Shown here in pieces: positions 6,819 through 62,571 of a stretch of DNA of 64,000 nt. A program made the translations under genes and the position numbers. Below the pieces are notes generated by a model that made no database searches, had not been told where the DNA came from, and saw nothing but the letters and a program-made list of their open reading frames with translations. Each line of letters starts with the position of its first letter. Position 1 is the stretch's first letter. Origin of the DNA: Neckera pumila (taxonomy: Eukaryota; Streptophyta; Bryopsida; Hypnales; Neckeraceae); assembly GCA_963969595.1 (NCBI GenBank), contig OZ018416.1, positions 374,501 to 438,500 on the forward strand. Reading direction: 5' to 3'.

Positions 6819-6875
<57 letters not shown>

Positions 6876-30644: not shown

Positions 30645-31340
30645 CAAGCTACAACAGTGGCATGAAAAGTTCCATGCCCTACCGTCCCAGCAGCACTGCA
30701 ATGGAATTGCGGGGCTGTCATGACGTAGTCGACGTCGAAGCACATGTCCAGTTGGGTTCTGAGTCTCCGTCACAGGACGTCTATGTAGACGTTTAGAATG
30801 ACATTTTTAGCGTCTCCTGAACATCATTGACCTACATGATGATGATAATAAATCAAACAACATTTTCAAGAATAGTGAAGGAATGTGACTCTGAACCCAT
30901 GCATGGTTGGTTAGTATTGAATGGCCTTAGAATTGCCCGTTTGGGCCGGGGGGGGGGTAAGAAATCACAAGAGAAATCAAAAACTCGCTACACATAAAAA
31001 GTTAGCGGTTGTCAATATTGTTGAGAAGTACAATTGCAAGCTTAAGGGTTACCTTTCATATATATGTATTTCAATTTTTTACGTCAATGCATGCATGTTG
31101 CAGTTGGGAATCATTCTTTTAGCCTAGTGGTATGTTTTAGGTACTGCTTGAACACTAACAAGGAACAACGCATGGCTTCTCAATGATTTAAGGAAGACAC
31201 ATGAAATTTCATTTTCATTATCATCTATTTTGGGACTTCATGCGAACGGATAATCTTGTGTTAGTAAGCAATAATGCCATATTTAACTACTTTTGGACTA
31301 TTCAAAGTCCAAAATTAAAAATCTCCCAATGCATGGTGCT
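30645..31340. other. CACTA 3' transcript region and unresolved left edge of the palindrome cassette
   Basis: GACGTC motifs characteristic of the CACTA continue to about 30820 (e.g. TGACGTAGTCGACGTCG), then stop. A G-run of about ten lies near 30950. The first palindrome-like string is at about 31350 (CATCGGGAGATATCC). The cassette boundary should lie between 30820 and 31350, but I find no clear terminal repeat or target duplication. Confidence 0.4.
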
Positions 31341-31825
31341 AGGCATTACATCGGGAGATATCCAGATACCTTCAAGTTCATTTTCCTAAGTATGCTTTAG
31401 AAACCCCAAGAGGTCAATTGCATTCAAACTTGTATGTCAGGGACAATATAAACTCCGAATGATGCTACAAGTTCAAATGCAGGTTCCCAAGGTGGGAAGT
31501 GGAGATGAATATTGAGAACAATAAGTGGCAAGGAAAAAAATCGCTTGCAACATTATAAAAATCTCAAAGGAGATCGAATACAAGAAAAGAAAGAATAGCA
31601 AAGGACACAGAGCGTGGACATTTGCTACGACTACGACATGGGATTTGGAAGGTACCCTCAAGAAATAACAAAAAATGCACATTCTGATAAATCGTGATAA
31701 AATAACTCCATCCTACTCACATCAACTTCCACTACCACCACTAGTAACTTCCGAAAAGACATTGAGAACTACTGTAGTGACCAAAGAAAGAAATGGTGCC
31801 ATTATGAAGCCGAAACAAAGACACC

Positions 31826-31893
31826 ATCGGGAGATCTCCCGATAACCCTGCCACGGTCACATTGAACAAAAAAAAGCATCGGGAAATCTCCCG
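31826..31893. repeat. Two palindromes just downstream of gene A
   Basis: ATCGGGAGATCTCCCGAT (31826-31843, perfect) and CGGGAAATCTCCCG (31880-31893) lie 37-104 bp beyond the gene A stop. Confidence 0.9.
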
Positions 31894-31929
31894 TTTGATA
31901 GTCGTGGTGGGCGACGAGACGTTAGTCAA

Positions 31930-34900
31930 TCAGGGGTCCACCTCGTTTGCCCTATTCAAATTCGCTAGGGCAGCTTCTCTACTTTTCTTAGGAATAGTAC
32001 AAGATTTTGGGTTCACTTTCTTGGACCAATTGGCGTACAATGCACAAGATGCATCCACCCAAGTGGGAGGCCTGTTCTCCACAACCCATTTCCCATACCA
32101 ACAATTCTGGTACATCAATTCCAAGTTACTTTCGGAATTATCTAGTCTCCAATACTGAAGCATAAACTTCCCGTTGTTTTCATGCCCTTCCTCTCTGCAG
32201 ACGTCAGATAGTGCTCTTCCTCGCCAGACAGCACATATTGAGGGGTCCTCAGGTCTAAGCAGAACCCATGAACCTGGGCGAATATCAACCCAAGGATTAA
32301 AGCTTTCCCTTGGTGCTTCATTTGCGGGTCCGCAATAAGGTTCAAATTCCTCTTCTTCAGGAACCATGTCGACAGGGTTGATGGTCGGCCGCTGGCAAGA
32401 AGATTCCCGCAATCTCCAATCATACTGTGGCCAGAAGCCTTCAACCAATTCCGGAACAAAGTCGGGAAGAAGCTCCTTGAGCTCTCGCAACACACGTTTC
32501 CAATAATCAACGTATGGTGCGAAGGTGGCCGCAAATCCCTCGCATTTGGACATTCCGTTTCGCCAATACTCAATGTACTTCTCAATTCCTAACAGAATCA
32601 AGCCCTTGCTTAAGGTCGCTTTCCGTGCCGCCTCCACCGCCTTCTCTTGATTTCCCGTGGCTTCCGGAACTTCGTTACCCCACATAGGCTTGAAAGGAAC
32701 AGGCCTAGGGCAACCTCGAGGGAGTGTCACCCGACCCATGCAGTCTTTCTTCCCAAGGCATCGAGAAGGAGTATCAGATGGTAGCCACTGTGAATCAACT
32801 GCAGACTTCTTGTACTTCATAACAGGGATTCCATCACTGTCCACATAGAACCGGAAAAGGTGCATCTCCCCCAAACCAATTAGTTTAGACGTGCCACTAC
32901 ACAGGAATCCCTTCACAAAGGACTTGAAATCTGCCACCTCCTGGATGAACTCCGGCATGAATGACAATTCCTGGGACTCCATGAACGACTTCATGAGGTC
33001 GGCGACAACAAATGTATTCTTGCTCTTTAAAGCCTTCGATAGGTGGCTAAAATACGCATCAATATCTTCGTGAGTATGTCCAACTAGTAGGAAACCGACC
33101 TGAATTTCCTTGAAGACTCCACGTGCAGTAAGCAAAGACAAAAAGGCCATGACGTATTGGTTTTTATTATCCTTCGCGGAGTTGTCAAGCTGAAGATAGA
33201 GCTTGTTAGGAAGGGGACTCGATCCACGACGAAGTTCCTGTGGAATCAACTTCAAGGCGTCCATACACCGAGATTTTCCTTTGAGTAGCGCGTCGAACAT
33301 TGCATTTGCCGGCGGATAGGGAAAGAGGTCGCTCATCTCCCGAATTGGTGGACCTTCAAGTCGCCTTAACAGTCTAGCAAGCGATGAAATGGTAAAGTTC
33401 GAATCGCCCGGCCAGCACGCTGGTGCATAATGTGCATACGCACCATCGGCATGACCATGAGCCACCATTCCAGTTATACTCATAGGAAGCTGACCCAAAC
33501 CTTGTGTGGCCTTCATCGTCACGCGCATTCGTGGGAGAGCCGTCTTCCTCGTGTCCATTTTGTCGTGAATAATGCACAAAATCTCTTGAGGATTCCTTCT
33601 GGACTCCTCACGCCACGAGGCATACAGATGACGACACGATCCTTGATGATTAAGATGTTCAGTTTGCTGCTTCATAAACTCCACGAAGTCCGAGCTTCCT
33701 TTTGGTGATTTCTGAATGAACTACTGTAGGTCGTCGCACACCGTACACTTCGCAAAAGAGCTCCCAACAGGCTTAACCGCGACGTTGTTAAATAGCTCTT
33801 TCTTTATTCTACTAACAGTCGTCTAGCTCACGAGAGGAAGGCCATACTCCACATTCAACTGCAAATTACGTAAAACACAAGCTTCAGCACCGACGGCAGT
33901 ACCACTCTGAGCATTCAAAAATACACACAAGCAAAGAGACCAGGTGCAATGAGCACAGTCAAATCCGCAGAAAAACATCGGGAGATCTCCCGCTGAGTAG
34001 ATGAATGCATTCAACTCCTACAGTGAAACGCATCGGGAGATCTCCCGATGAAAGAAGCAAGAAAATAAAATCTCCATGGAGTACTGTGTCTGGAAGATTC
34101 TCCAAAGGGGGAACAAACAAACAGAAGGCCGTATAAGAGTATCAATGGGAGATTTCCCGATGACTACCGGAGTCCAAACAAAGCATCAGTGATCAAAACC
34201 AGAATACTGACGGGTTCATCGCCCTACCTCATTGGCGTCAGTGTGAACGCGCTTCCAATTATTACCAACAAGCATGAACTTAAGCGTGTCTACTCTCCCA
34301 TTTCCAATGCACCGCATTTGGTGCGACATCTGGTCAGCAGTATTTTTGATTATCGCCTTCATTGTACCAGTAACCTGCACAGTCCGAAGTCGAGGCTGCT
34401 TAACCCCTTTGTTCCCGTGTGTGGAAGAAACAATCCCTTCCTTGTACTTGTCAAGGTAATTGTGAAAGGTTGACTTTGGAATTCCATGTATAATGTACCA
34501 CGCTGTGGCACAAACTTCTGCTTCTTCAAGAGTAATGTACTTCCGCTTCCATGTCCACTCCACCGAATGCAATTGTCCACCTACTGCGATTCCATACTCC
34601 CGACGCTCTTTAAAGGATTTTGAAAAGTATCTCTGCCTGACCTTCAGCGTCGTTTCACGGTGGAAAAACTGGCAGCAATTCCTGTCGCAGCATCGCTTTG
34701 AGCTGACCTGTTGAATCTCGTCATCCGATGTCTTCCGCGTGAACTGTGCCTCCTTCTCACTGAGAGAGGGTCGACGAACTATGAAGCGATAGGGTGCCTT
34801 CTGTCTTCCACCCAAGTAGGCGAGTGGATCTGGTTCAACAACAAAAGCAGAGAAGTGGTCGACTGTATCCTTCAAGCACCGACCACTAGGGAACCAACAA

Positions 34901-35508
34901 TTTGAAATGGGCCAGCGAGCATGAATCATAATCGTATCTGGATTTCCCACGAAAACATCAAGGATAGTCACGCCTACGTGGTCCTCACCGAGGGTAGAAC
35001 TCTGAAAATAATCATCCGCCTTCCAGCAAGTAATTCGACCTGAAGATTGAAGGACACCTAATGAATCAAGGTGATGCACCTCTAGCCCGATCCAATCCTC
35101 CTGACAAACGAATGGGCTTTCATCCGCATGGGGATCCGCAATGACCTTTACCACGTCGGCTGCCCTCCACAACACGGTTCTGTTTAGAACATCTCCAAGC
35201 GTCTGCAAGCCTCTCTGGCAAGGCGATACCCTCATATGCTGAGCTTCTAGGACGACCAATGAAGGCCTTACCAGAACAAATATCCAGGGCCCGAAAGGAA
35301 TCGGAACACCCAACCACTGACCTTGAGGACGGGCCTCTACAACGCATCCCACTCCAACTTCGCCAAATCCTGGGAGATAGAGCCTCACTAAGTCACCATC
35401 GTTCAGCGCAGCACTCCGTGCAGTAGATTCCTGAGAGTCCGCATCCTTAGCAGACTCGCCAACGTAAGGCGTTATGGGATCCCGAAACGAGTCAGAGTAA
35501 GAATCCAT
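31930..35508 (-). CDS. Gene A: DUF7869-like protein, possible transposase (two exons, one in-frame TAG)
   Basis: Exon 1 is 35508-34228, with ATG in good context (ACAATGG) and first residues MDSYSDSF. The intron is 34227-33823 (GTAGGG...CTAG) and exon 2 is 33822-31930. The join is in phase, giving about 1,057 codons. N-terminal features are a Cys cluster (CCDRNCCQFF) and a helix-turn-helix-like region (GIPKSTFHNYLDKYKEG). Exon 2 has FAKCTVCDDL, then IIHDKMD, QLDNSAKDNKNQY and VGHTHEDIDAYFS, the hallmark block of DUF7869. The three acidic positions (D near 515, D near 638, then 38 residues to E) resemble a DDE/RNase H-fold triad, so a transposase is possible; this is inference. A single TAG (33723-33721, after DDLQ) interrupts the frame. 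Three palindromes sit in its intron. Confidence 0.65.
33823..34227 (-). repeat. Intron of gene A holding three palindromes
   Basis: The 405-nt intron contains CGGGAGATCTCCCG at 33979-33992, the perfect 20-mer CATCGGGAGATCTCCCGATG at 34031-34050, and ATGGGAGATTTCCCGAT at 34145-34161. The neighbouring exons (3.2 kb) contain none. Confidence 0.8.
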
Positions 35509-35763
35509 TGTCACTGACTCTCTGGAGCCAGAAGCAATAAAGCAGAACCAAGGAATGAAGAGTGATCCTAGAGACAAGAATATCAGAATATAAGTCAAAA
35601 ATGAACTACGCACACGACGCCGACAGCAAGGATTGATGTGCTCATTTATCACCTGACTCAATCATTTGGGAGGATTTCAACTCCGCTTGCGGTGGACTAA
35701 GGTTAAGGGTACCTCCTATCATGTATAATGTCCCACACTGACCAACTCAGGGCAACTCATAAA

Positions 35764-36003
35764 AACAACGGGAAATCTCCCGATGGCAACAACGGGAAAT
35801 CACCCGATGCGAACAGCGGGAAATCTCCCGATGAAAACAGCGGGATATCTCCCGATGGAAACAGCGGAAAATCTCCGGATGGAAACAGCGGGAGATCTCC
35901 CGATGAAAACAGCGGGATTTCTCCCACTAAAAACAGCGGGAAATCTCCTGATGGAAACAGCGGGAAATATCCGGATGGAAACAGCGGGAGATCTCCCGAT
36001 GAT
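35764..36003. repeat. 24-bp tandem array of the palindrome, ten units
   Basis: Ten head-to-tail 24-bp units of the form AACAGCGGGA--TCTCCCGATGAA begin about 256 bp upstream of the gene A ATG. Individual units vary mainly at the palindrome centre (GAGATC, GAAATC, GATATC, GATTTC) and in single arm bases. Because 24 is a multiple of 3, the array makes spurious frames (NSGKSPDG repeats) on both strands. There are no spacers, so it is not a CRISPR array. It may be an upstream binding-site array. Confidence 0.9.
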
Positions 36004-37056
36004 ATAAACGAGAGAAAGGAGATCATCAAATGCCGGAGCATCCTGGCGTACATATACAGTGATGACTACGTACATTTTGTATACTCGTAGTCTACGGACG
36101 CATACTATACGGGAGGATGATGTCTACACTGTCACGGTTTATAAATTTGTCTATTGGTCCATTGACGCAGTGACGAAGGCCAATCATCACATCAGAAACT
36201 ATCATTCGAAACTGCCATTGCTAGTGATTTGCGCACTGCCGCTTACAGCAGTATGCCAAGACGAAGCAAACGGTAGTACGCTGTACTACTTCAAGATGGC
36301 GCACACTAATCCAAATTCACCAAACAGTACTCATGCGATACGCTACTGTTGTTCATATATCAAACTAACAAATCCTGATTTGCGAATGGATGTAGTTAAT
36401 TGTAGAAGTCGACCTTCCGGCCCTTCGTCACTGCTGCTATCAGTTGCCGCATTACTATTACTTCACAAATTCACTACTGCCCATGAACCACTGAACTGCT
36501 CTAGATGATCTGCACCTGAGGAAGTAGGGATTCAAGCAATTCATACCTAGAGAAGAAATGAAGGACCGTGATGGATCGCCAAGCTCCCGACGACCCACAA
36601 GCGCTGTCACTTCTTAAGACCTCCGTGTCCACGCTCCTCGATTGGCACTCCTCACTCACGTGAACTCCTGCCGGCGAAACGGGAGAAAACACAACAGAGG
36701 ATTTGCAATATTGGGCTAGACGTGGGAGCTCCAATTTCCCCCTTTCACTTGGACATGATCCACCTGCACGTGCACTCTTCAAAGCCGTGCACTATTGTGT
36801 CCAGGCAGAATCTTGAGATGCGGTCATTATTTTGGAATGTTGACTGCATTCTTGTTCGTTCCGATTTATTGAATGAAGAAATGCCGCGCATGAGTGCCTC
36901 TGCACGAAATTCGAGGCCTTCGAGTTTGGCGAAAGGAAACGTGCGGTCTTTGAATTCGAATCTCATTCAAATTCAACAACTGTGCAACATTCATCGTCGC
37001 TGTAGAGGATCCGTTGAAGCTGTGGGATTGGCATTTTTTGGGATCAGGACTCCACA
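36004..37056. other. Region between the 24-bp array and an AT-rich insert, no gene recognised
   Basis: Moderately GC-rich sequence with frames of 90-150 codons on both strands (e.g. 36059-36508 +). These do not resemble known proteins, and I cannot see splice-joined exons. Confidence 0.35.
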
Positions 37057-37970
37057 TTAACTCCTAAAGGACCGGACTGCGTTTGACCGACTTATGACTT
37101 TTTTGGGCAGGTACGTGAGAGTGGAGCTTTGCATATTTTGGGCTGGAATTTTAATACAATGTGGGTACTAGAAATATCTTTCATATGCACAAATATCATG
37201 ACGTTCTAAAATATGAGTAAAAAGTTATTGCATAATATGTTACTTTTTTTTCAACTCGGGCAGTTTGGACAGACCTGAAAAAAACACTTTTAAATAAAAA
37301 TAAAATTTGAACTTTGTTCTTCAGATTTATATGTACTCAAAAAGCTTTGAATCATTGCATTTCAATAGTTGAAAAAAAAAGTTATGAGGCTTTTTAGTTT
37401 GCGGGCAGTTATGGAATTCCTACACCAAAAATAACTTTGAAGTCCTTTATTTTACTGAAATTTCAATATTTTTGGAAAAAAATAATGCTATTGGATGTAG
37501 ATTGTTTATAATAACAATTCAACCATTTGGATTGGAATTTTTTAATTTTATAACTTATTTATTAACAATTTAGTATTTTGAATGATTCTCTACTCTTTCT
37601 ACTTACTATTTTCTTCCTATATGTTGCACAACTCCAAATGATCTGAACTTTTTTATGTATGTAGCCAACTTGCCCTAATGAATGAAACCAAAGAAGCACA
37701 ACCATTTTGGACATTTTTTCATAACGATCTGACCTTGTGAAGTGCAGCTGCTCGGATTTTCGTAGTGGTCCAAAAAGGATTTTTGCCACTTCAAATTCTA
37801 TTATCGTGCAATCTACACGGTGAAAATTTCTGAAATTTTTCCCACATATTCTCAAACTAGAGTAATTCAAGATCCTACGGTTACATGTGTCAAAAAATGA
37901 TATTTTTCAAAAATTTGGTACTTGTACTAGAAATGGCAGTTTAGGGTTTTAGGGTTTAGGGTTTAGGGTT
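37057..37970 (+). mobile_element. AT-rich element starting TTAACTCCTAAAGGACC
   Basis: It is closely related in reverse orientation to about 59630-60656. Shared strings include TTTGCATATTTTGGGCTG, ATATCTTTCATATGCAC and ATTTAGTATTTTGAA. The start matches the TTAACCCCTAAAGG terminus of this family. The right end is unclear. No coding capacity. Confidence 0.5.
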
Positions 37971-37975
37971 CGGGG
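37930..37975. repeat. Short interstitial telomere-like (TTTAGGG)n tract
   Basis: About four to five TTTAGGG-like units (TTTAGGGTTTTAGGGTTTAGGG, then a degenerate one). More degenerate GGGTTT strings occur at 38435-38510. TTTAGGG is the plant-type telomere unit. Confidence 0.7.
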
Positions 37976-40433
37976 TTACAGATTTTCGTTCACTGACTTG
38001 AAAATGGAGGTTTTTTAGCTTTTTCAAAGCAACTGTAAATGTACTCGATGTGTTGCTAAGTGGATTTGCTGAACTTTATACCATAAATCCTACTAATTCA
38101 CGGTTGGTACACTGCTCGATATAATTTCTATTATATTGAAGCCTTCAGTACTCCCTTTTGATATACTTAATACAGACTTAGAGGGTGGTTGGTTGGTCCA
38201 AAAAAAAAAAAAAATTAAAAACCTTTTCTTTGTTATAAAGTTCTATAGTACCTAATAATAAGTATAGCATTGTAATCTATCTTTTCTATTATCCTTAAAG
38301 GCAAATACATATATTCGTTTATAGAGATGAACTACATGTAATTCCATTTTCGGTTTAGGATTCTTTTTCTTTTAAATAAGCTTTAATCTTTTGTTAAGGA
38401 AACTGTCTCCAATTTTTGGCTACTAAAAAAGGTTTAGGGGTTCTGGGTTTGGGTTTTGTGTTATCCAAAAGAAGGGTTTACGGCTTAGGGTTCATGGCTC
38501 AAGGTTATGTAAGAAATTGATATAAAGTGAATTTAAAAATAATTTTCTGAATTTGTTTTCTAGAAGATTACGTTTTTCTGTACATGGAAGCCTTGATGCA
38601 TTGCATTTGGATTAAATATGAGGAGGTTATAGTGTTTTTTTTGGGGGGGGGTCATCTACACATGTCTTAGAAAAAATTAACTTGTACGATTCATTTTCAA
38701 ATGCAATCCATATTACAATTTCTCAGGAAATAATTAATGACTTTGTCAGATATGCTTGGTAGAACAATCTCACCGTTGCAATTTCCTTCATTCAATTCTA
38801 TCTTAGAGTTGTTAATGAGTTATTTTTTTGTTCAATTATCTTGGACACACCTTTCATGACCCCTTCCATGGATGATAGAAATGATGTGCTTTTTCCCTAC
38901 ATTTCCAGTTCTACATTCAAAACTCAATTTCAGACCATATGAAAAGTTCTCAATGCAAAAGCTTGGATGTAAGAATATGAAGTTAAGAACATTGAAAGTG
39001 AAAAACAGTAGTCATAGAAGGTGCTGCGAAACTTGTTTTCTTCACTTTAAACCCTAGAAGACGAAGGGCGTTTTCTGTCAAAACCATTCTTAACTTGCCA
39101 TGTCTATAGCAAAGAGACCCTGAACATAAGAAATTATTTTTTTGGCACTCTAACAATAGGATCTTATACTAGACTTCTTTAACCCCTAAAAGTCCAAGGG
39201 TTTTGGACAAAATACAAATGTGTTATAAAATATAAGTTCTAAAACTTTTCTGAAGTTTGCATCAAAGAAGATAATGTGAAGCACAAAAAATAGAAAGCAT
39301 TTGTACGGTCAAAATTATAAATTGACTTTTAGATTTTTTTTAAATGAATTTTGAAGATATAACTTCAAAAATTCACCAAAAATACAATTTCTATTTTTAG
39401 CATTTGAATTTTTTTTTTATTGGTCAAAATTGTGGTTTCTATTGATTTGTGTAAAAATGCATGAGATCTAATAATGATAACACCAATACTTTCCCCAAAT
39501 AGTAAGTTTTTCAACACTAGGCAAAACTGTACACTTTGTGCTTTTTCTCTTAATATAATTTTTGTTTGATCGTAGCGATCTGAATTTTGAGTATAAATAT
39601 TGTCAAACAACCCAATCTTTTGGAGGAAAAAAAAAAAAGTTGAAAAAAAGTTTTTTTTTGGCCGAAAATTTGGCCTAAAGTCAAACAATGACCATAAAAT
39701 AGTCACTCGAGCACTTAGGGGTTAAGAATGTGTCAAAGAATTCTTTGAAACTTTGACCATATAGATTGCAAGACATGTGCATTTAGTGGGAAGAAACCAA
39801 GTACTTTTGCAATTGACTCACTTGTAATGACTAGAGTTCTTTGCTTTGAATCTCTGTAACTAAAAATGATTGGCTGCAGTTTGGATTTAGATTTTTTTAT
39901 TCTTTAAGTCAGAAATTTGAGTTGATAATTTAGGAAAAAAATTTTGAAGAGGAAAATGCTTAATTTTCATTTGCAAATTGCAGTGGACACCCTCGTACAA
40001 AATCTCAAATCAGAAAATAAAAAATATGGATTGCATTTTTCATATTAGGTTTTTGATGCTAAAAGTAGACTTCTACAAAGAATATTCAAAAAATAGAAAC
40101 TACTAAGAATAGTAGGTTTGCTAGATTTTAATTTAACTTTTGAATATTGTGGACACCCAAATTGCGTGCCTTGGGCATTTAGAGGTTAAAGGTTGTAGAA
40201 AACGTGATGACTAGAGCCCCTACCTATTTTAGGATATTTCATCCCCTCGTAGTAACTTCACTATATTACCTTTTTTTTTTGGGCAACAAAATTTCATCTA
40301 TTGGTGAACGTTTAGAACTTACTATTTAATTTTTAACTTTTTTGGGGGTAAAAAAATGACGATGTCGGTATCAAATGATAGCTAGTAATGAACAAAATTG
40401 AAATGAAATCATCAGATTTAAATGAACTCGTAG
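37971..40433. other. AT-rich repeats inside the cassette, no gene
   Basis: It includes a copy of the AT-rich family (about 38580-39060, AGAACAATCTCACCGTTG) and the TTAA-bounded element at 39179-39725. All open frames are short and low-complexity. Confidence 0.5.
39179..39725. mobile_element. TTAA-bounded AT-rich MITE-like element (547 bp)
   Basis: It starts TTAACCCCTAAAAGTCC and ends GCACTTAGGGGTTAA, short inverted ends. It is non-coding and belongs to the same family as 50953-51529 and 57716-58449. Confidence 0.5.
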
Positions 40434-40652
40434 ATGAAAACTCTTTCCATCCCCAAATGGCTACATGATTTTGCCCTGTATGAGATTACCCCCCCACCCC
40501 CTCGCAGTAATTTCAGCTTATTACCCCCCACTTACATAGTAAGTAGGATCCCATTCATGATGACCCCAGATTGCCCGAGGTCAATTCATCCCACCCTGTC
40601 AGAGCAGCCCCCCTACAGGTGGTGCGCCATCATTGCCGCGCCCCGTTGCCTT

Positions 40653-40820
40653 CTCCCGTTGCTCAGGGTCCTCCTCCCATGCTCTCCCACGAAGCGCTGT
40701 CATTGTTTCTCCCGTTGCTCAGGGTCCTCCTCCCATGCTCTCCCACGAAGCGCTGTCATTGTTTCTCCCGTTGCTCAGGGTCCTCCTCCCATGCTCTCCC
40801 ACGAAGCGGCGTCATTGTTT
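40653..40820. repeat. 56-bp tandem repeat, three copies
   Basis: Units at 40653, 40709 and 40765 read CTCCCGTTGCTCAGGGTCCT onward and are almost identical. They lie in a GC-rich island (about 40480-41000). They generate look-alike frames in three phases, none of which I take as a gene. Confidence 0.9.
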
Positions 40821-41907
40821 CTTCCGTTGCAACGTGAGCGGCTCGCGCGGTGGCAATTGTCGCAGGCACCCTGAGTCCGGCCCGCTACGCGCTACTTCTG
40901 TCTTCTGATATCGGAGTTGGGGCGCGGCCACCCTGCATTGACACCCCGCTGCCATCGTGGAGTTGGAGAGTTCCACGCGCCCGCAAGGTATGAGCACTCC
41001 ATTTATGGGTTAGGTATCTGTCCGTTGTGTGCGTTTCAAACCTGTTCGTGCTATGCTGGAACCTGTGCGTGGTGTGGGTAGCTTTGTGCGCGGTGTGTAG
41101 GGATGTGTGTGGGGTGTGTTTTGGAGGGGTTATTCAACGTGTGTTAAGCCAAACTTTGGACTAAGCAGGAAGTAGTGATCAACGGAAAACGAGGCGGGGG
41201 GGTCCTTCTCGACAAGTAGCACCATCTTCTGGCGGCACAAGGAGATCCTCATGGCAACATCATCGGTAGCCGAAGTAACCGAAGCATTCTGGAATGACTC
41301 GTAAGATTACGTTAATTGTTTAATTTGTGGTTGTCTGTAATTTGTTTGTGAGCGTTTTTGTAGTTGTTTGTTTGTTGTATTGTGGTTGTTGTTTTCGTGG
41401 TTGTTTTTGTGCCTGTTTTTATGGTTGCTTGTTGTTTCAATCTGTGGTTGTTATCGCTCTTTTTCTTTTTTCTGTGATTGCAATTTCGTAGTTGTTTGTG
41501 TTTTTGTGGTTGTTTTTGTTTGCTGGTTGTTTCTGTGGTCGATACTATGGTTGTATGTTTGTTTCATTGCGTTTTTGTGGTTGTTTTTGTTTGCTGGTTG
41601 TTTCTGTGGTCGATACTATGGTTGTATGTTTGTTTCATTGCGTTTTTGTGGTTGTTTGTTCCTCAGCGATTTTTGTATTTGCCAGCGGTGTACTGGTTGT
41701 TTAATGTTGTGGTTGTTTGTGTTTGTTGCTTGTTTGTTGCTTGTTATTGTGGTCGTTATTGTGCTTGTTTGTTTGTTTGTTTGTTTGTAATTCACTATAG
41801 TAAGCACAGTAGTCCAGAGTACACGCAGAAATTTGAAAATGCCCTATAACCGCGCAATCGAATGGGAAATCATAGAGTAGAAAGCGAAGCAACGAACCAA
41901 AAAACAG
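40821..41907. repeat. Low-complexity GTTGTTT-rich region with a 71-bp minisatellite
   Basis: A GT-rich tract at 41330-41800 includes a 71-bp unit present twice (41500-41570, 41571-41641) and a partial third. The Phe/Val/Cys-rich frames across it (41368-41849) are by-products. No gene recognised. Confidence 0.8.
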
Positions 41908-42328
41908 CGGGAGATCTACCGATAAAAAACAGCGGGATTTCTCCCGACCAATAACAGCGGGAATTCTCCCGATGATCATAGTAGATTCTAACTAAAGTGC
42001 TCAGGGAAATGAGGAAGTGGAATGACCACATTGAAGTTGAACCGCAACTCAAGGATCCTACGGTTTCTGTCGACAGTATAGTATGCACTGTAAATTGAGA
42101 GTGGTCTGTAAAAACAGGAAATCAACGGGAGATTTCCCGTTGATTTTTTGCAAAAATAATAATCAGTGCAATAGCAAAAGAGAGATCAGTGTCATAAGAA
42201 AGTTACTGATTCAGCCGTCACCCAATAACAAGAATCATCGGGAGATCTCCCGTTGAATATGGTGAACGGATGCAGTCAAGGAACGATGTAGAGTCCGACG
42301 GCAAAGACTATCAACGGGATTAATCCCG
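41908..42328. repeat. Six palindromes clustered upstream of gene B
   Basis: At 41908 (CGGGAGATCTACCG), 41933 (CGGGATTTCTCCCG), 41958 (CGGGAATTCTCCCG), 42122-42143 (TCAACGGGAGATTTCCCGTTGA), 42239 (CGGGAGATCTCCCG) and 42315 (CGGGATTAATCCCG, a perfect palindrome with a different centre). The last lies 22 bp before the gene B ATG, so a promoter-proximal role is plausible. Confidence 0.85.
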
Positions 42329-42350
42329 ATGAAAACTAACAGGTGCAAGC

Positions 42351-45300
42351 ATGAATCGGTCGCCTGACAATCATGTGGCATTGCACAGAGCGAATACATC
42401 GAACGAACTGCCTCCCGAATTGTCACCCATCAGGCTATACAAGTTCATCAACTCAGTGGTGTATGCGTTCCAGTACATCGGTGACAACATTCCCGAAGCT
42501 GTATTTCGTTGCTGCCGAAAAGTAACAGCGTGGGGCCTTGAGTGGACAGACCAAGCAGGAGCAGCAGCTATCATATGTCCTAAGCTATCTTTCGATGGCA
42601 AAGGTCACACGACAACTGGGTTAGACGTCCTGAAGCTGCAAGGACTCGACAACTGTATCGTCCTCGCCATTGTCCGGGAAATGGTGCCCAAAAAGCAGGA
42701 AGCGAGAACATACGGCTTGATCCTGGACTACGCCACTATGGATCCACAGATGTGTGAGACAATGACAGTAAAAGGTTTTCTAGACAAGCCAGACGGATCA
42801 CATTCCTGGACACCAACGGAGATAGCCAACGAGTGGGTCGTTATAGACGACAGCCGTGGCGAGTCCAATACTGCTATAGTGCCCGTAGTTGCTACAGCTT
42901 CAACGCCTTCTACTCAGAAGAAGCAGAAGAAGAGGAAAGCCATAGTGGGTGGACCAGGGGATGAGATTGTGGAGGAAGCAAACGCAAAGGGCAAGGGTAA
43001 AAAGAAGAAGAAGGCCGCCCCGCTGACTATTGCCCAGGCGGTGAACATGACAGAGGTTGAGGTCAGCAAGCTCGAGCCTGGTGAAATTAAAGAAATTAAC
43101 AAGCTCTACAATCAGGTTTTTAAACCAATGTACAAATGGGACAGGAAGCCACTAGCGAATGCGAAAGGTGAACTCCTGCGTGTGCACTACGAGTTCCTCC
43201 ACAAAGCTACTGTCGGGGATCTCGTATACAGAGCAATTGACCAGGGTCGGCTTAAAGGAATTAAGAACAAGGTTCTCGTGGATAACGATTTCCACTCGGA
43301 GAACCGATACATTACCGTTCTGCCTTTAAAGAGAGGACCATATGGACCGGAGAACTTGGTTGAGTTCTGGGCGAACTGTCCAAAGAAGGAGAGCATGACC
43401 ACCAAATCGCACTACTACATTATTGGTGGTCAGCATACTGTTGCAGCGCATAAGGATTTGGTGGAGAATAACCATATCAGTGAGGCCGATAAGGCCGACG
43501 CTTCAACGTTCAACATCATTCCCATTTGGGCGTCATATGAGACCAAAAAGAATGACATCGTTCACCTCTCGAGAGCCCTCAACCAGAACCTCGCTAGTGA
43601 GCAGAAGGAGCAGAGATTTGCACAGCAGCTTGCGCACGCTAGAGTAAAGTGGAAAGACATGGGGTCCCCTCACCCATCATATGGAGGACGAGCGCACTCA
43701 GCAGCGTACCTCGTAAGTGTTACGGAACAACAGTAGAATCCATGCTTGTATGATAGTTGTCCCTTCTTGAAAATCAGCGGGAGATCTCCCGATGAAATCA
43801 CCACCTAGAGAAGTCGCAATGTGTATAGGCTCATGGTAATCAATGCTTATATAATGGTTCTCCCTTCCCTAAAATCAGCGGGAGATCTCCCGTTGAATAC
43901 ACCACCGAGAGAACTCCTAATGTGTACAGGCTCATAGTATTCCTCCTACTAGTCGAGAGAGATCTAAATGTCCATCAACTGAATTGAGTTCTCTAAGGCT
44001 TTGAGCGAAAAATTTTCTCTTTCTTGAGAGCATAACCTCCAGTCAAAGCATCAATGGGAAATATCCCGATGATATGTAGTTTCATTAACTGCGGATTTCA
44101 CGAGAACTCCTATTAAAACCCGCAATGTCGGCGTTGTGATGCAGGGATTCTATGCTGTGATGTCTTCAATCTTCACTGGGTTCAAGAATGTAGACAACCC
44201 GGATTTAAAAATCCCGCTGCTCTTCATCGAAAAGGATGAGGACTTCAACCGCTGGATTCAAATTGACAAGGACTTTCTAAGCAGAAAGCTTCCAGACGGT
44301 AACGGACCGAAAGCAAAGGGCATCCGTAAGCCGCTGGCATACTCGGACTTCAAGCCCTTGTGGGGATTGCGAGATGAGGACTTAAACTACTTGGCTGGCC
44401 AGGTGGAAGAGGGAATTGTTTGCGTGAAGAAAACGGCTATCAATCTCGATATCATGGGAATGCCGGTCACTCCGATGGTCGTGGCAGCAGGTCGGGAGAA
44501 GAAGCTAAGGGCCATGAAGAACGAGGTCATGTGCCACTACAGGCAGCACCCCCTTCCGAGCAAGAAGCCAGAGTACTCTCCCTACACGGCACAAGAGTGG
44601 GATACATTCGCGGCTGAGAAGAAGATCACCCGGGAGCAAGTGGAGTGGTGGACGGATAAGAGCATGGCCACCGAGTTGGGGCTAGAGTGGCTGGAGGGTC
44701 GTACAAAGGCTTTGAACAAAACTCACGATCCAATGAACTGTCCAGAGGCGGTGACAAAGATGTGGCAGAATTTTATGCACGCCCATACAGAGGAGGTCGA
44801 GAAATGGGTTGCCAAGGACTTCGAAAAGGATTACCTCTGCAAAGTCATGGATGAGAAATGCTGGGACATCAACAAGATTCTATCAGAACCTTCCGTAAAG
44901 GCATGGCGAGGTGAAGTGAAGACCCACATGTACTTCTGGTTTCTCTTCGAAATGACCAGCGGCGGCGCTCGTGCAAAATTTCTGGAGAACCGGAATTTGT
45001 GCCGGGTATTCGATGCCCTCGAATACAAGGATACGGATCGACGCCTTGTGAGAGCTCGTTCCCCAGGAGTTCTAATCACGGATGGTGCTGGATTGCACGC
45101 TATTCTCGCACACCTGGAGAGGCGGTGGCAAGATATGAAAGTCCGCCTCTGGGACTGGCATGTAGTTCATTACATTCCGGACAAGGCGGATGGCTTCCCG
45201 CATCCAGTTACCGGATCAAATTACACTGTGTATCTGGTCATGCTCTTTGCCTACGACCCGGACCACGGTCCGACGAGCAGCTTCCACAATTTCTTCTCGA

Positions 45301-47765
45301 GCGTTGTCGAGATGTCTGCTGTCTATTTCTCCAGAGATTTGGACGAAGTAGACACATTGTACAGGAGGTCGAATATGCCTTGGTTCTCAATTGCCTCGGC
45401 GATCACCATTTTCCGTAACCACATGTCCGATAATATGATCATGGTCAATGTGAATGGCGGTCCGGACTTCACTTCTCTTGGACTGGTAAGCCACGTTCTA
45501 TTTTCTTCCGCATTTCTCTCCGCAATTCAGTCAATGTCCATCGCACTAAAATTTGCTTCATCAATGGTGTCAGGCGAAAGAAATCAAGGTCATCGAAGTC
45601 GTTTATGACTCCGAGGCACAGTCGAAGGCAATATTGGTCGCCCGACAGATATGGGAGCATATTCATACCAAAGGCTATGTTCCTCAGGAGGAAAACAAAG
45701 AAGAGGAAGATGAGGAAGGTGGAGGAGACGGAGACGAGGAAGATGAAGAGGGACCGGGAGACGGCGACAAAGCTGATGAGGACGATGCAGCAGACGAGCA
45801 GCCCCCCAAAACCGAGGCGGAACGGGAGGGCAACGATTCGGAGAAGGATGTTACTTCCTCTCGCACAGAGAGTGATCACGAGGAAGAGGAAGTTCAGACT
45901 CGTACTCCACGAAATACCGCAAGTACCCCTCGTGCCTCGAAAGACTTGGAGCATGTGAGCAGTGACGTGGGGACTGGTCCAAGCAGAAAGGTCAGTCATT
46001 GTACCTATTCATCGGGAGATCTCCCGCTGACTGTTCCGCATTGCGCATAATCATCTGCTGAGAACATCTTATGTGTTTTACTGGCAGGATGAGTCCGCAC
46101 AAAGAGTGGCGCGACGGTCGGCGAAGAAGATAGGCACAATCAAGCCGAGGGTGGGCTCAAGCTCTGCGGTGGTTCTGGTCCAATCAGCTCCGCGCAATGA
46201 GTTGAGATCAAAGCGGAGGCTGGATATCGTCCTATCGCGTAATCCGACGCTAGACCCTGAGCAGGATGCAGTTAAGGCGGGACCCAATATGTCCTCTCCT
46301 ACACCTTCCGAACCATAGGTTTCTGAGACGGGGACTCCTGAAGCGACCAAGGCGGCGTCCATTCTTGTTAGCTGTTTAGTAGAGGGTGGAGGTGCTCCTG
46401 CCAAGGACGTAGTCAAAGACATAGTGCCCCCCATCGTAGAGTCCTCACGTGACATACCTTCGAGGCCGGAGCGGGGCCTTGGAGCAACGCGAGATCTCCC
46501 GATCCTAGATGAACATGCTCCTACTTCTGGCCCGCAGGAGTCCAAGGGGAAGGAGCCCATTACTATTGCATCGGGAGATCTCCCGTTGCCTGAGGCACCT
46601 GATGTTGCACCGCGCGTAGATATGCCGAACAGTATTATGGAGGATACAATGGCGGACCTCACGGAAATGAGTCCTAATGCAGCTAATCCGAAGGTGAATC
46701 CATTAGTTGCTGTCCCACACCCCGGATATTCGTATGCTAACATGATTTCTATGCGGAATAGATTTGAGAAACTATTGTGTTTGTCGGATTTTCATGCTAG
46801 ACAAACGCGCCATTTGGCGAGTAGCAGGCGGTCCATGGTACCGACCGCGTGGGAAGCGCACTCATTTCTTTATCGCGACATTGTTCAGATAGCCTCTGAC
46901 CGTGGAACGCTGGAATCAGACGATGGGGCCGATGGACAGAGGGATTGTTTGACTGCGACAGTCGTGGAATCAGAAGGGACGTGGTTCGCAGAAGACATTT
47001 TGACAGGTACTTTATTTTAGACCGTGCATAGTTCTGTGCATTTGATTGATCCTGATTTATCTTCTTCATGCACTTGTTTCTAAAGGGGATTTGTCCTCAT
47101 TGACTGCAGTTTGCGGTGGACCTTCGACATCGCAGCCAAGCACATTGGAAAAGGTAGCTCAGCGGAAGTATTCTGTGGTCCTTGACTTAAATGGAGTGCT
47201 TCTTCACAGGTCATACGGCCATAATAGACTTCATGTTGAGCGTTGCCCGGGGGTCACGACGTTTTTGAATTGGCTGCGTAGTAGAGCGGATGTTGCATTC
47301 TGGAGTAGTGTTAATGCGAAGAACATGGACCATTTGTTGGACATTGTCCTGGCAGGTTGTTCCTTTAGCCGTCGAGATGTCATTTGTCTATGTCAAGGGG
47401 CATGCACGAGGTCCACATTCAGAGCCCCATTTGCACCAAATAAGCCGTTTTTCCTGAAGGATCTGACGACGTTTGCGAACATGGCTAGTTTGTCCACAGT
47501 GGATAATATTCTTCTAATTGACAACAGTCCTGAAAAGAACGTCTTAAACGATGCACATAACGCTGTTTTTCCTCAGTCCTATTGCGGTGAACTGCTCGAG
47601 AACTACCTCCTCATGCAGTTGATGCCTTGGCTTGACGGCCTCCTTCTTTCAAATGAGACGGTACCGGTGTATATGAAGGCGAATCCCCTTCCTGGCGGCC
47701 AAGTTGCAGTGGATTCCGAATCCACTTTGGGCTGGGGAATCATTACTGGAATTCAGCGTCATTGA
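42351..47765 (+). CDS. Gene B: ParB/sulfiredoxin-like, methylase-like and FCP1-like HAD protein (five exons, one in-frame TAG)
   Basis: The exons are 42351-43712, 44145-45485, 45574-45990, 46088-47006 and 47110-47765. All introns are GT-AG and all joins are in phase, about 1,564 codons. Exon 1 has a Lys-rich NLS-like stretch (GKGKKKKKAAPL) and SHYYIIGGQHTVAAHKDL, resembling the GxxR/DGQHR loop of ParB/sulfiredoxin-fold proteins. The exon 2-3 junction (FRNHMSDNMIMVNVNGG, then IKVIEVVYDSEAQSKAILVA) resembles the SAM-binding end of beta-class DNA methylases with the catalytic motifs degraded; this is inference. Exon 3 is very acidic. Exon 5 is an FCP1/NIF-type HAD domain (VVLDLNGVLLHR, CPGVTTFLNWLRS, FWSSVNAKN, ILLIDNSPEKN). 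TAG at 46316-46318 lies in an otherwise open exon. If it is a real stop, exon 5 belongs to another transcript. Confidence 0.6.
43713..44144 (+). repeat. Intron 1 of gene B holding three palindromes
   Basis: The 432-nt intron (GTAAGT...GATGCAG) contains CGGGAGATCTCCCG at 43778 and 43879 and TGGGAAATATCCCGA near 44055. Its first half holds two similar blocks of about 100 bp, each ending in a palindrome, so it grew by duplication. Confidence 0.8.
45991..46087 (+). repeat. Intron 3 of gene B holding one palindrome
   Basis: The 97-nt intron (GTCAGT...TGGCAG) contains TCATCGGGAGATCTCCCGCTGA at 46010-46031. Introns 2 (88 nt) and 4 (103 nt) contain none. Confidence 0.8.
46572..46585 (+). repeat. Palindrome inside gene B coding exon 4
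   Basis: CGGGAGATCTCCCG lies in the coding frame and contributes the residues SGDLP. A decayed copy at about 46489-46500 (GCGAGATCTCCCGATCC) contributes RDLPI. Both are in the low-complexity linker downstream of the TAG. They are the only copies I see in exons. Confidence 0.75.
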
Positions 47766-48768
47766 TTACTGTTGGCATGGGACTTCATCGGGAGATTTCC
47801 CGTTGCTGTAGACGACAGTTTATTGAATGATATTTTACAGTTGTCGAAGGATGAATTGTAGTTTTAATTGTAAATGCTGTTGTAAATTATTGTAAATTCT
47901 GGATCATTTACATTTTCCTGAACTTGTAGTTGTCGACTAGTGATAACGAGACATTATGAAACTGGATCATGAGGGAAGTGATACTTCATTACAGTTCATT
48001 GCATATGCAACTAGAGTCTATGGTTCCTTCGTGGATTCTGATTTATACCCAGTTTAATCAGAAAGTTAGCATGTTTGCTTTTCAAGTACTGTTTATGTGC
48101 GGAGTTCTTGCTGTCCCGCTGTTCTTTAGCATGGACTCGCTATCATGTACATGTAGGTTCTTGTTGTTCTTGTACTTGTTGATTTCCGTCTTCCTTACCT
48201 TATCGCATAGAATATCATAGGCAGACTTTCATGTCATTGTCCATGTCATCGATGTATAGCTTCTAGACATGATTATAAGAATGTATTTATACAGGATTGG
48301 AAGGTCTCCCACTGCGCAAGGGTTCTTCGTCTAATTCATCGTCTATTTGAACCTGATCAGACTTAGCATTTACAAGGTCTGCATTAAGTGAGTGTCTTTT
48401 TTACGGTGACCGGGAGATCTTATGTTGTTCAGCGTTTCTTAGTGAAGTGGCTGTCCTGTCGTAATTCAACGAGTGATAATATATCATCGGGATATAATAT
48501 ATCATCGGGATATCAACGAGAGATAATATATCATCGGGATATAATATATCAACAAGAGATAATATATCATCGGGATATCTCTCGTGGTTTATTGGCTTCC
48601 AATGAAATTACTGTCTGTTCTAAATTGATCGGGGTATCTCCCGTTTACTGGAAGTTCTAAATACAGTGAGTGTCCTTCGGAATATCATCGGGAAATCTCC
48701 CGTTCTTTTGGGGTTTAGTCCTCCTCTGTCTGATGAGTTGACCTCCTTGTTGTGTTCTGTTTATGCAG
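47766..48768. other. Region between the HAD exons with palindromes and a short repeat cluster
   Basis: Palindromes lie at 47789, 48630 and 48689. At 48475-48590 the palindrome half-site alternates with ATAATATATCATCGGGATAT-type units, about six times. No gene recognised; the 83-codon frame at 47969 is hydrophobic but unsupported. Confidence 0.5.
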
Positions 48769-49251
48769 AAGGGGGCTATGGTTGTTTTGACAGGTGCTTT
48801 ATGCGTTCAGGGCGATGTTTTGGATCTTCATGAAATAATCAACGTTCCTTCTGGTTTCCATGACTTCCTTAGTCAGTTGCGTGAATGGGCTCACTGTGGG
48901 TTGTATTCCTCCATGCATTTGTCTACTTTGGAGGTGCTTATGCGACGTCTTTTCCCGCGGAAGATTCGGAAGGGGTTTCAGTATCTTGCCGGGTCAAACA
49001 ACCCTGACAAGAATAATCCTTATCCACACCGTGCGGCATTCGTGAACATGATCTTAAGTAGCTCTAGACTGCGCAGCATTTTTTTAAATCAAAGTATTGT
49101 AGTTCTTCAGATAGATATTCTTCAATGGCCACATTCTCATTTGATAGGTCCCTCCATACGCGTGAGGGATGATATTGATCTCCTGAAGTTAGAAGATGCA
49201 TGGTATGTACAGAAGGAGCTACTTATAGTTGGGAATTCTGGAACACATTAG
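48769..49251 (+). CDS. Diverged FCP1-like HAD exon, catalytically degenerate
   Basis: An exon-like frame follows a TTTATGCAG acceptor. It aligns along its first 60 residues with gene B exon 5: KGAMVVLTGALCV against KYSVVLDLNGVLL, VPSGFHDFLSQLREWAHCGL against CPGVTTFLNWLRSRADVAF, and YSSMHLSTLEVL against WSSVNAKNMDHL. The nucleophile Asp of DxNG is replaced by Thr, so phosphatase activity is not expected. It looks like a tandem duplicate of the last exon, perhaps an alternative C-terminus for gene B or a pseudo-enzyme. No start codon or upstream exon of its own is evident. Confidence 0.45.
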   Translation, partial: KGAMVVLTGALCVQGDVLDLHEIINVPSGFHDFLSQLREWAHCGLYSSMHLSTLEVLMRRLFPRKIRKGFQYLAGSNNPDKNNPYPHRAAFVNMILSSSRLRSIFLNQSIVVLQIDILQWPHSHLIGPSIRVRDDIDLLKLEDAWYVQKELLIVGNSGTH

Positions 49252-50952
49252 TCAAGTTCAGTAGTTTAGATAGTATAGGGATTGCCTTTCTTTCTTTTCG
49301 TGGGCAAATTCTTCACTGTGTCATTCTTTATTGGTGTTAATAAAATGTGGTGAACCTTCTTCACCTTTTCTTTACTTTCAAGTTTCATTCCACCGAGCCA
49401 GCAGTCCTCTTGTACCGTAAGTTTATATGCGGGGATTGCATCGGGAGATCTACGGATCCTTATTCTGCAGGAAGATACTAATGGGTCAGTGCCTACTTAC
49501 TAGTCTTTGTAATACTCTAAGTTGAACAATGTTTGGTTTCTTTGGTTTCTTGCAACACTTAAGATCCCAAAGTCTGGGATCCGCACTATAGCGGCACCTC
49601 TCCCGATGAATCTTCGCTATATTCAGTACATTTATGTATAATAAATGTACTATGCGTGAAATATCTTAGTTTTTATGTTTCTTTGCCGTCTTCTTGGGTG
49701 AGAACATGGTCTACTTCAATCTAATGTTCCCACTTTCATAGCCATTGCGGTCTCAAAAACCAATACAACGGGAGCTCTCCCAATGAAATCTCCCAGGACA
49801 TAGTCTAAAATTACTCCTAAAGTCCAAAAGTAGTTAAATATGGCATAATATCTTAGGAGCACTGGTCCTTCTTTTCACAGATTGGACATTGTAGAATCCA
49901 TTCATTCACAATTTCCCCTATTTTTTTTCTTTGCAGACCCTAAGCCCTTATATTTCTTTCTCAATTATAATTAGGAAGGTGCTATATTACCTTTTTCCAT
50001 TTTTCCTTGAACGCAACATGATGGCTTCTCACTTGAAGGCGGTTCTCTCAATTTCTAGTCGTTTTAACGAGTGGAGAATCCATTTGAGGAATAATGTCGC
50101 ATTTTGTACCTTCATTTTGCCTGTCTATGATTACGGAGTACCAAGTGTCCACCGAATTGCCTTATTTTGGAGATATCTTATAATCCAAATGGTAATTCCA
50201 ATATTCCCTACTCCCAAACAGAATGGGATCATGAATAATTTGTTTTTGGTGTTTTCAAAATGAAAGTTTGAATTAAATGTTTTGGAATATTTTTGCTGGC
50301 CATAAATTTTTATTGCGTTGGGTAATCAATCTTTGAACCCTTTGGAATGTTTTAGCTATTGCCTTGTCCACAAGTGAAAGCGCAAAGAGCAGGAGGTCAA
50401 TTTCATATTCATTAATTTATTTTTTTTGGCAAGCCTCAGGGTAATTCAAGTATATTGAATTGTATTAGTAGAGTAGTAGTCCATCCTTCACGGAGTGGTC
50501 ACTTAGAGAAATGCCGCAAACAACGTGCGGCATAATATATTACGAAATATACAGAAGTTTGACCCCGAACCCATTATTTTTCCTAGTGCAAGCAATTTCA
50601 AATTGTTCCTTTACATCACATTTGTTGTGCGACCTGTTCACAATTCCTTTTTTATTTCCTTACTAAATTCTTGTTTGCTCAAGATAGGATAAGGTTTCGG
50701 TAGAGTTTTAGGTGGAATTTTTTTTTTTAATTTAGCTTGAAGAAAAAGGGAAGGAAAATCGTATTAAAATGTTTTTTAATGGAAGTCCTGAATAGCACAG
50801 ACCCTAACAACGTTTTTAAGTATTTATTTTTTTTTATTCGTGTGTTTTTCATGTTTTTTTCTATAAAAGACAACATAAGGTCAAGCCAATTATGTGTTTG
50901 CTAGTTTCATGTATTTTTTCACTTGCCTTTTTTTTGGCTCAAGGTAGCTAGT
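49252..50952. other. Right edge of the palindrome cassette and AT-rich sequence
   Basis: The last palindrome-like strings are at 49442 (CGGGAGATCTACGG), about 49600 (CCTCTCCCGATG) and 49769 (CGGGAGCTCTCCCA). Beyond 49800 the sequence is AT-rich and non-coding. No clear cassette end is visible. Confidence 0.4.
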
Positions 50953-60656: not shown

Positions 60657-62571
60657 TAACTTCAATTGTACAAGAGTATAGAAGACTACTATAACAATGT
60701 GCTGAACTAAAAATTTCAGCACATTCAACAGCATGGATTGAAAGACTATAATGATTCATGAGAAAAAAACTTTTTTCATTCCTAAGAAGTGCGGTCAACA
60801 GACTTCAAGATTTCTTGGAGCAAAATTTTTGCCCTTAATGAATTTTTGCCTCTCCATTATTGAATTCTTAATCTTTTTATGTATTCTCATAAAATATTTC
60901 AAAAGCAAATATAGAGCTTAGCTTATTCTAAATCACTGTCCAATGTAAGGTAGTTCCGTGAATTGACAATACACTAGTCAATTTTTTGATGCTTTCTTAT
61001 GCAATGAGGAATTTTTTAATTTGAAATCCAAATAATAAAAAAATCAGAGACAAATATTTGGAATATGGACGAAAAATTCAACAAACTTTGACTTCACAAA
61101 TTGCAAGATAATAGGGCTTGAATTTAGAAGAAAATGTTTTTGTTTCAAAGTTGCCATGACAGAGCTAACAAAGTTTGACTCCTCTTAGCCACTAAAGTCC
61201 TAAAGTCCCTACAAGGGACGCTTGGGATTTTGGGTAGGCTTGTCTCATCTCAATTTTTGACATAACTTTTGGAATTTTTTTTGGAAAGATAGGAAATCAG
61301 ATTAGCTTTTGGGGAATATAAATTTTATTCTAATTGGGGCTCGGGAGCAAAAGTTATGCTACATTAAGTTCAAGAAAAAGCTCAAGCGGTAGCCCAAAAA
61401 AAATCATAAGAAATAATTTTTTATTAAATTTTTTAATAAAAAATTAAATTAAATTTTTTAAATTTAATTAAATTTTTTTTTAATTTAATTAAATTTTTTT
61501 TAATTTAGTTAAATGTTTTTTTACAAAGATTGTATTTTTGTTTACATTTGCAGCTTGATTCATTCTATTTGGACTAGTGATGAGAAAGTTATGGACAATC
61601 TTGTTTTTTGGGCAATCTAAGCATCTTCTTCAAAAAATAACTTATAGAATTCATTTTTGAATGCAATTTTTACAATCTTTCAAAAAGACTTGTTACGCAC
61701 GGTTAAGTTCTCTTACTATAACAACCTTACTACTAGAATTCTTATGTTTCAATTCCACCTTAGAGCTATTAACGATTTAGTTTTCCCTTCAATCTTGAAT
61801 CTACTTCTACTTAACAAATTTCTTAATGGGTGAAATTTTTTGTTGAATTTTTTTTCCTAGATTCATAACTCTTCAACATTAAAAAATTTGAAAATCAAAA
61901 TCAATTTTACAAAATTCAAATTAAGAAGATTTAAAGCCAAAAAAACTAATAGTCGAGAAAGGTTGCAAAAAGTACTTGTTTTCTAGAATTCAAATGCAAA
62001 TATCTTGCAATCTACATGTTCAAAGTTTCTAAAAAAATTTCCCCACATTCTTATACTAGTCTAATACAAGATCCTATAGTTGGATATTCAAAAAAATTAA
62101 AAATTAAAAGTTTATTGCTCTTTGCAATAGAAATGACAATTTTGAGTGGTTTTTGATGGAAAAAAGGCCTTGGGACATTAGGGATTTGCAATAGAATGAC
62201 AGTTTTGAGTGTTTTTTGATGGAAAAAAGGCCTTGGGACATTAGGGATTAGAATATGATTTGAGAATTAAAATTCATTTTTTTTTGCCATTTTATATCAT
62301 ATTTTATTAGTTAAATATATGTCAAATTTCATTATTTGATGAGGGTTTAGCAAAAGATGCCCAAATTGCTTGAGTTGCCCAAATTTTTTGGTGCAACATA
62401 ATTTTGATTTAGGCACCCAATTAGAAAGAACATGTTCAAGCCTTTTGTCATATTTTCATGATAGAAAATCATTCCTTCTATATAGGACAAAAGTGTACGT
62501 GTTGGCATCCTCGGAATTTTGTGTAAAAAGAGGAGGTCTTACATTGTAGTTTTACCTCCAACTAGCGATTG
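60657..62571 (+). repeat. AT-rich repeats, including a copy of the family at 5330 and 16481
   Basis: About 61230-62260 shares GTTATGGACAATCTTGTTTTT, ATCTAAGCATCTTCTT and GAGCTATTAACGATTTAG with 5330-6080. A pure A/T stretch lies at 61427-61515. The string TTTTTTGATGGAAAAAAGGC and the following CTTGGGACATTAGGGATT occur twice at about 62150-62250. No gene. Confidence 0.5.

Follow-up and report, generated by a model that had tools for sequence, protein, structure and literature searches.

A large transposon of the moss Neckera pumila with two genes and its own dispersed palindromic sites

Two long multi-exon genes (A and B) and many copies of one short palindrome share a confined part of a 64,000-nucleotide stretch of the genome of the moss Neckera pumila (GenBank assembly GCA_963969595.1, contig OZ018416.1, positions 374,501 to 438,500 of the forward strand; hereafter the window). 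What kind of genetic unit holds this combination, and what might the palindromes do for it? An earlier note on this DNA had placed a possible undescribed transposon with dispersed binding sites at 31341–49800. The analysis of the window and of the 339.5-Mb, 18-contig assembly reveals an 18,573-bp transposon at 31274–49846, so that the location given in the note was right while its extent was slightly short. The element probably belongs to the Sola superfamily or lies close to it, and its sites may be bound by a protein that it encodes.

Defined ends and copy number of the element

The element is bounded by 26-bp terminal inverted repeats (TIRs), which form a perfect inverted repeat (ATGCC...GGCAT), and is flanked by a 4-bp target site duplication (Table 1). 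Ends of this family occur 957 times in the genome with up to two mismatches over 24 bp, while the reversed control gave none. Among the first 100 ends listed, 31 have a convergent neighbour within 40 kb, and 25 of these 31 pairs are spaced 18.4–23.6 kb apart. Twelve further copies were read. Copies X, Y, Z, and W were reached via palindrome clusters, and copies a–h were taken as end pairs 18–21 kb apart; four of the latter, on one contig (C1), had at most one exact site each in the palindrome listing, and the other four were picked blind. All twelve possess the family ends, with no more than one mismatch over 24 bp in X, Y, Z, and W and no more than three over 26 bp in a–h. A perfect 4-bp duplication is present in 12 of the 13 copies, the window's included, and is missing from copy h. 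The duplications are AATA, CTTC, TCTA, AAAT, and AATT for the window and X, Y, Z, and W, and CCAT, AGTC, CAAT, CTAA, TTTA, AAAA, and ACAA among a–h. The number of ends, their paired spacing, and the duplications therefore establish an 18,573-bp mobile element with defined ends and further copies, which belongs to a family abundant in this genome. Exact ends thus emerged from the alignment of copies, as the earlier note had anticipated.

The 13 copies fall into two subfamilies, one comprising the window copy, X, Y, Z, W, and e–h, and the other comprising a–d. Identity to the window copy is 95–97% over long blocks in the first subfamily and 66–85% over the longest blocks in a–d. The expectation that palindrome clusters would accompany both genes in other copies held for the eight end-pair copies, all of which carry both genes together with 26–39 sites.

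Two other delimitations were dropped. A 5-bp duplication, ATAAT, with an outer 42-bp repeat was rejected as other copies show AT to be part of the end, and a nested insertion in the AT-rich spacer between the genes was rejected as the spacer is present in other copies. Because it is alignable there, the spacer is part of the element. Parts of it (37342–39970) are similar to repeats elsewhere in the window, at 5390–7149 and 61963–62095. Within the element, a 169-codon open frame at 48742–49251 lies behind an apparent 3′ splice site and has no Pfam match; it is possibly a third gene or a last exon. No Rfam family and no tRNA were found in the window.

Table 1. Features of the transposon, in window positions
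Feature	Position	Strand	Remarks
Target site duplication AATA, left copy	31270..31273	.	Perfect 4-bp duplications in 12/13 copies
Left terminal inverted repeat ATGCCATATTTAACTACTTTTGGACT	31274..31299	+	Inverted repeat, also in other copies
Left subterminal palindromic sites	31352..31893	+	Sites 31352, 31828, 31880; scans with ≤2 and ≤3 mismatches
Gene A exon 2	31930..33858	-	DUF7869; predicted RNase H-like DDE/D transposase core; two in-frame TAG
Gene A intron	33859..34227	-	GTAGGG..TTGCAG; sites 33979, 34034, 34146
Gene A exon 1	34228..35508	-	
Ten-unit 24-bp palindrome array	35763..36001	+	Upstream of gene A
AT-rich spacer between divergent genes	36002..41898	.	Without sites; alignable in other copies
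Three-unit 25-bp palindrome array	41899..41973	+	Upstream of gene B; more sites 42126, 42239, 42315
Gene B exon 1	42351..43712	+	Conserved family; IIGGQHTVEA motif (ParB/sulfiredoxin-like by eye only)
Gene B intron 1	43713..44144	+	Sites 43778, 43879, 44055
Gene B exon 2	44145..45485	+	
Gene B exon 3	45574..45990	+	Acidic
Gene B intron 3	45991..46087	+	Site 46013
Gene B exon 4	46088..47006	+	Sole two coding-sequence sites (46488, 46572); one in-frame TAG
Gene B exon 5	47086..47765	+	NIF (NLI-interacting-factor-like, HAD) phosphatase domain; PF03031, E 4.9e-12
3′ and right subterminal sites	47789..49782	+	Sites 47789, 48411, 48571, 48630, 48689, 49442, 49592, 49769
Right terminal inverted repeat	49821..49846	-	Inverted repeat, also in other copies
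Target site duplication AATA, right copy	49847..49850	.	

Sequence and placement of the palindromic sites

The palindrome CGGGAGATCTCCCG occurs at 10 exact places in the window and at 29 with up to two mismatches (chance mean 0.10), all of them within 31352–49782. With up to three mismatches, 35 sites lie inside the element and two elsewhere in the window. The 35 comprise ten in a 24-bp tandem array, three in a second array, and 22 dispersed ones, which agrees with the roughly two dozen dispersed copies and the ten-unit array originally described. The site can be written as half-sites CANCGGGA-NNNN-TCCCGNTG. Comparison of 21 dispersed sites, excluding the arrays and one member of a duplicated pair, defined the conserved motif as the 20-bp CANCGGGANNNNTCCCGNTG: conservation ends sharply at its borders, the free positions are symmetrical, and the flanks have nothing in common. 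The terminal repeats, the 4-bp duplication, the second array, and this 20-bp motif are additional to the features first reported. An RNA hairpin reading was dropped; at none of the consensus pairs have both bases changed with complementarity retained, and the unit is therefore a pair of DNA half-sites rather than an RNA stem.

The sites avoid coding sequence. Only two of the 35 are located there against 14.9 expected (P 1.2e-6), and the depletion persists when sites are collapsed and the spacer is excluded (2 of 23 against 14.4 expected). The 33 sites outside coding exons are located in introns, upstream regions, and flanks, with none in the 5.9-kb spacer. From the outer ends of the element inwards, the first sites are reached after 78 and 64 bp, or after 76 and 62 bp when counted from the 24-bp core.

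This placement bears on the main rival to the role in self-recognition that we favour below. En/Spm (CACTA) elements encode a DNA-binding protein, TnpA, and possess repeated short subterminal sites in a methylation-linked system, in which the subterminal repeats serve autorepression and end joining. The sites described here could likewise be operators or synapsis sites of the transposition system, with the N-terminal part of the gene A product or the gene B product as a TnpA-like helper in autorepression and end pairing, and without any anti-silencing role. The proximity of the outermost sites to both ends and the arrays upstream of both genes are compatible with such a system, but sites also occur in introns and, on the 3′ side, as far as 2 kb inward, where end synapsis would not need them, and the 26-bp ends differ in sequence from the sites. 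In contrast to En/Spm, the sites are palindromic and spread through the element, the ends are not CACTA, and exon 2 of gene A has no CACTA match in Pfam. We regard this alternative as unlikely.

Genome-wide, the 14-mer palindrome is found at 373 places, compared with 91 for its reversed control. Its restriction to the element across the genome is judged from the first 50 of the 373 places listed, 46 of which are found inward of an exact end and no more than 22 kb from it, in stretches that make up 0.74% of the DNA compared; 31 of these 46 sit in the four copies X, Y, Z, and W. Within that scope, the idea of a transposon bearing dispersed marking sites holds. The same figures address the possibility that a host transcription factor binds the sites, which the element would have gathered as promoters or enhancers. 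The arrays upstream of both start codons would suit such a factor, but it would be expected to have genomic sites of its own, and only four of the 50 lie away from an exact element end, with the caveat that 31 of the 50 come from four copies. We therefore consider a host factor improbable. Viral contigs contained no relative, one contig having a single 20-mer match, and the literature containing the 14-mer string was unrelated by title.

Gene A probably encodes a transposase

The two long multi-exon genes and the DUF7869-like protein first seen by eye are both present. In Pfam searches at E values up to 1, exon 2 of gene A matches DUF7869 alone and exon 1 has no transposase match; the models of the CACTA, hAT, Mutator, PIF, and Tc1 transposases do not match gene A. 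An RNase H-like fold is predicted with moderate support among the matches listed, and Asp is conserved at three places. The predicted fold and the conserved acidic residues suggest that gene A encodes a transposase, which would assign a likely role to DUF7869, an uncharacterised domain; a literature search found no paper naming it. Nineteen relatives of gene A were collected, two of which are named and come from the mosses Physcomitrium patens and Ceratodon purpureus, and the gene A profile has no PDB relative at E 10. Both in-frame TAG codons occupy positions that are Gln in relatives, a change that CHG decay is expected to give. A reassigned TAG codon was rejected, as mixed stops terminate the other frames of the window and the gene A TAGs fall at Gln positions.

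Among prokaryote contigs, two weak DUF7869 relatives were found, both on binned contigs (L001 and L002). On L001, an 89-bp tandem repeat with another palindrome pair (GTGTTCGTTCGCGAACGCAC, CTTGTGTTCGTTTCCGAACACAAG) lies at 4972–5149, some hundreds of bases past the final long frame that follows the distant transposase relative. It is possibly another private palindrome, from a single case; no such palindrome repeat was seen on L002.

Gene B encodes a second protein with a phosphatase domain

Gene B, on the plus strand, comprises five exons encoding 1573 residues with one in-frame TAG. It had been proposed to encode a ParB/HAD fusion. The HAD part stands, in the form of the NIF-type phosphatase domain, whereas nothing significant in profile comparisons backs the ParB part. 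Searches of Pfam, NCBIfam, and PHROGs, a profile search of the PDB, an hhalign comparison with SopB of the F plasmid, and a query with a consensus sequence all fell short of significance. Bacterial ParB acts on palindromic parS sites of similar size. The likeness to this system consists of palindromic sites and a weak resemblance in the IIGGQHTVEA motif, for which single relatives gave sub-threshold matches to DUF6551 (E 0.094) and phrog_1033 (E 0.04, one of 16 members), but gene B has no significant match to any ParB family profile.

The exon 1 family includes 15 relatives in public sequence data, none of which carries a precomputed Pfam domain. At E values up to 1, Pfam contains no family that matches exon 1 or exon 2; the first 942 residues (200–900 scored), used as a protein query, retrieved nothing, and the phage collection contained no match to exon 1. 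Searched by sequence against the PDB, exon 1 matched nothing but an INO80 subunit (E 0.0045) over residues 175–247, which are charged and of low complexity, and this match was not used; the AlphaFold model of exon 1 was poor, and its fold search was likewise not used. At E 0.001, no relative of the phosphatase exon was found in the PDB. Literature searches joining ParB with transposons, or bryophytes with novel transposons, found no paper.

Selection on the genes and the sites, and decay of the copies

Comparison of the window copy with a–d (dS 0.46–0.52) yielded dN/dS values of 0.147–0.163 for gene A and 0.309–0.351 for gene B. Both genes were under purifying selection, and gene B represents an uncharacterised protein family under selection. 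Between the subfamilies, the arms of the sites agree at 238 of 250 positions (95%) and the flanks at 575 of 767 (75%; Fisher 2e-14, positions taken as independent). This test covered 21 noncoding window sites outside the arrays, namely 20 with up to three mismatches and, of the places with four, site 42315; another three with four mismatches were excluded. The conservation of the 20-bp sites, 0.882, exceeds that of all 1000 random sets (maximum 0.862). Site loci that recur in two or more copies number 43: 29 are common to both subfamilies, nine occur in the first only, and five in the second only. Purifying selection has therefore also acted on the site arms.

These results weigh on neutral spread, in which the palindrome would be a functionless product of mutation or gene conversion, multiplied by array slippage and dispersal. 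Array units do vary between copies (loci 35889–35961 in the array upstream of gene A are present in two to four of nine), and sites in present copies decay like other DNA (CG decay of 0.041, compared with 0.050 in other noncoding DNA). Neutral spread is nevertheless at odds with the conservation of the arms over the flanks, with the restriction of shared sequence to exactly 20 bp, and with the avoidance of exons, and we deem it highly improbable.

Among nine copies, 1439 of 2043 changes (70%) are C>T or G>A, and the frequency of change per site in CG and CHG is roughly fivefold that in CHH. Such biased decay is as expected for copies that are methylated and silenced.

Relation to known elements and a possible role for the sites

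Calling this an undescribed class of element was too strong, as the predicted transposase type, the 4-bp duplications, the size, and the occurrence in mosses fit the Sola superfamily, as far as the available part of its description goes. Sola elements have a DDD-type transposase and 4-bp target duplications, are sometimes longer than 15 kb, and occur in the moss Physcomitrella patens (PMC10741241). Set beside Sola by description only, the present element is probably of or near this superfamily, resembling it in its 4-bp duplication, its large size, and the gene A relatives in P. patens and C. purpureus. It differs in its second gene, phosphatase domain, and private palindromes, which the available part of PMC10741241 does not mention for Sola. 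IS3EU elements are DDE elements of eukaryotes that are large and in some cases carry additional genes (PMC12730594), but the accessible portions of the sources give them usually 6-bp duplications and TA..TA ends (PMC10045372), in contrast to the 4-bp duplications and ATGCC..GGCAT ends found here. The element can thus be described as Sola-like, distinguished by its own system of private palindromic sites and by a second protein that is uncharacterised.

The best explanation as a whole, which we consider moderately probable, is a large two-gene, Sola-like cut-and-paste DNA transposon whose own protein binds the sites, most likely for self-recognition and anti-silencing as with VANC, or for promoter control. 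VANDAL elements are of the Mutator type and have another transposase. In the portion of PMC5735166 available, the VANC motif of VANDAL lies in introns, intergenic DNA, terminal noncoding DNA, and tandem repeats, and is dense in the element only; the VANC21 motif measures 9 bp and is not described there as palindromic. The present element is alike in having a private motif in noncoding DNA and tandem arrays together with a second protein. It differs in that its site is a 20-bp palindrome, and gene B is likened to VANC by layout only. Variation of the array upstream of gene A between copies is also seen in VANC target arrays. Self-recognition with an anti-silencing role is favoured because the layout, consisting of a noncoding motif, arrays, a decaying and apparently methylated element, and a second protein, matches VANC/VANDAL in the part of its description available.

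In the proposed mechanism, protein A would recognise the 26-bp ends and make a 4-bp staggered insertion. The element would bear its own mark as arrays in front of each gene, within introns, and near the two ends, and an element-encoded protein, most likely the gene B product, would bind this mark as a dimer. The bound mark could then act as a self-recognition code that counters host methylation or otherwise controls the two promoters, as VANC does in Arabidopsis VANDAL. Here, we infer the identity of the binder and the effect of binding. If correct, self-recognition through dispersed motifs would be a general route of plant transposons past silencing, extending beyond VANDAL. A bolder version, which we advance tentatively and regard as doubtful, is a second, independently evolved system of sequence-specific anti-silencing, in which the NIF-fused accessory protein of a moss Sola-like element reads a palindrome, possibly as a ParB-like clamp, and unsilences its kin.

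Two observations weigh against the favoured explanation. Within the first subfamily (five copies), the sites vary more than their flanks (65 of 560 columns compared with 66 of 888), an excess that we attribute to the CG content of the sites. In addition, none of the 13 copies has both frames free of stops, and gene A is stop-free in three of 13; stops were counted by the gene model of the window, in which one frame shift leads to many stops.

Other features of the window

The 12-bp unit GGGAGTAGAACC and its reverse complement form arrays at 1600–1671 and 7492–7572, which enclose a segment of about 6 kb, an arrangement like that of a further transposon whose subterminal arrays are inverted. The frames at 13527–14811 resemble a multi-exon eRF1 gene, in which the motif that usually reads NIKS in eRF1 is NIKN.
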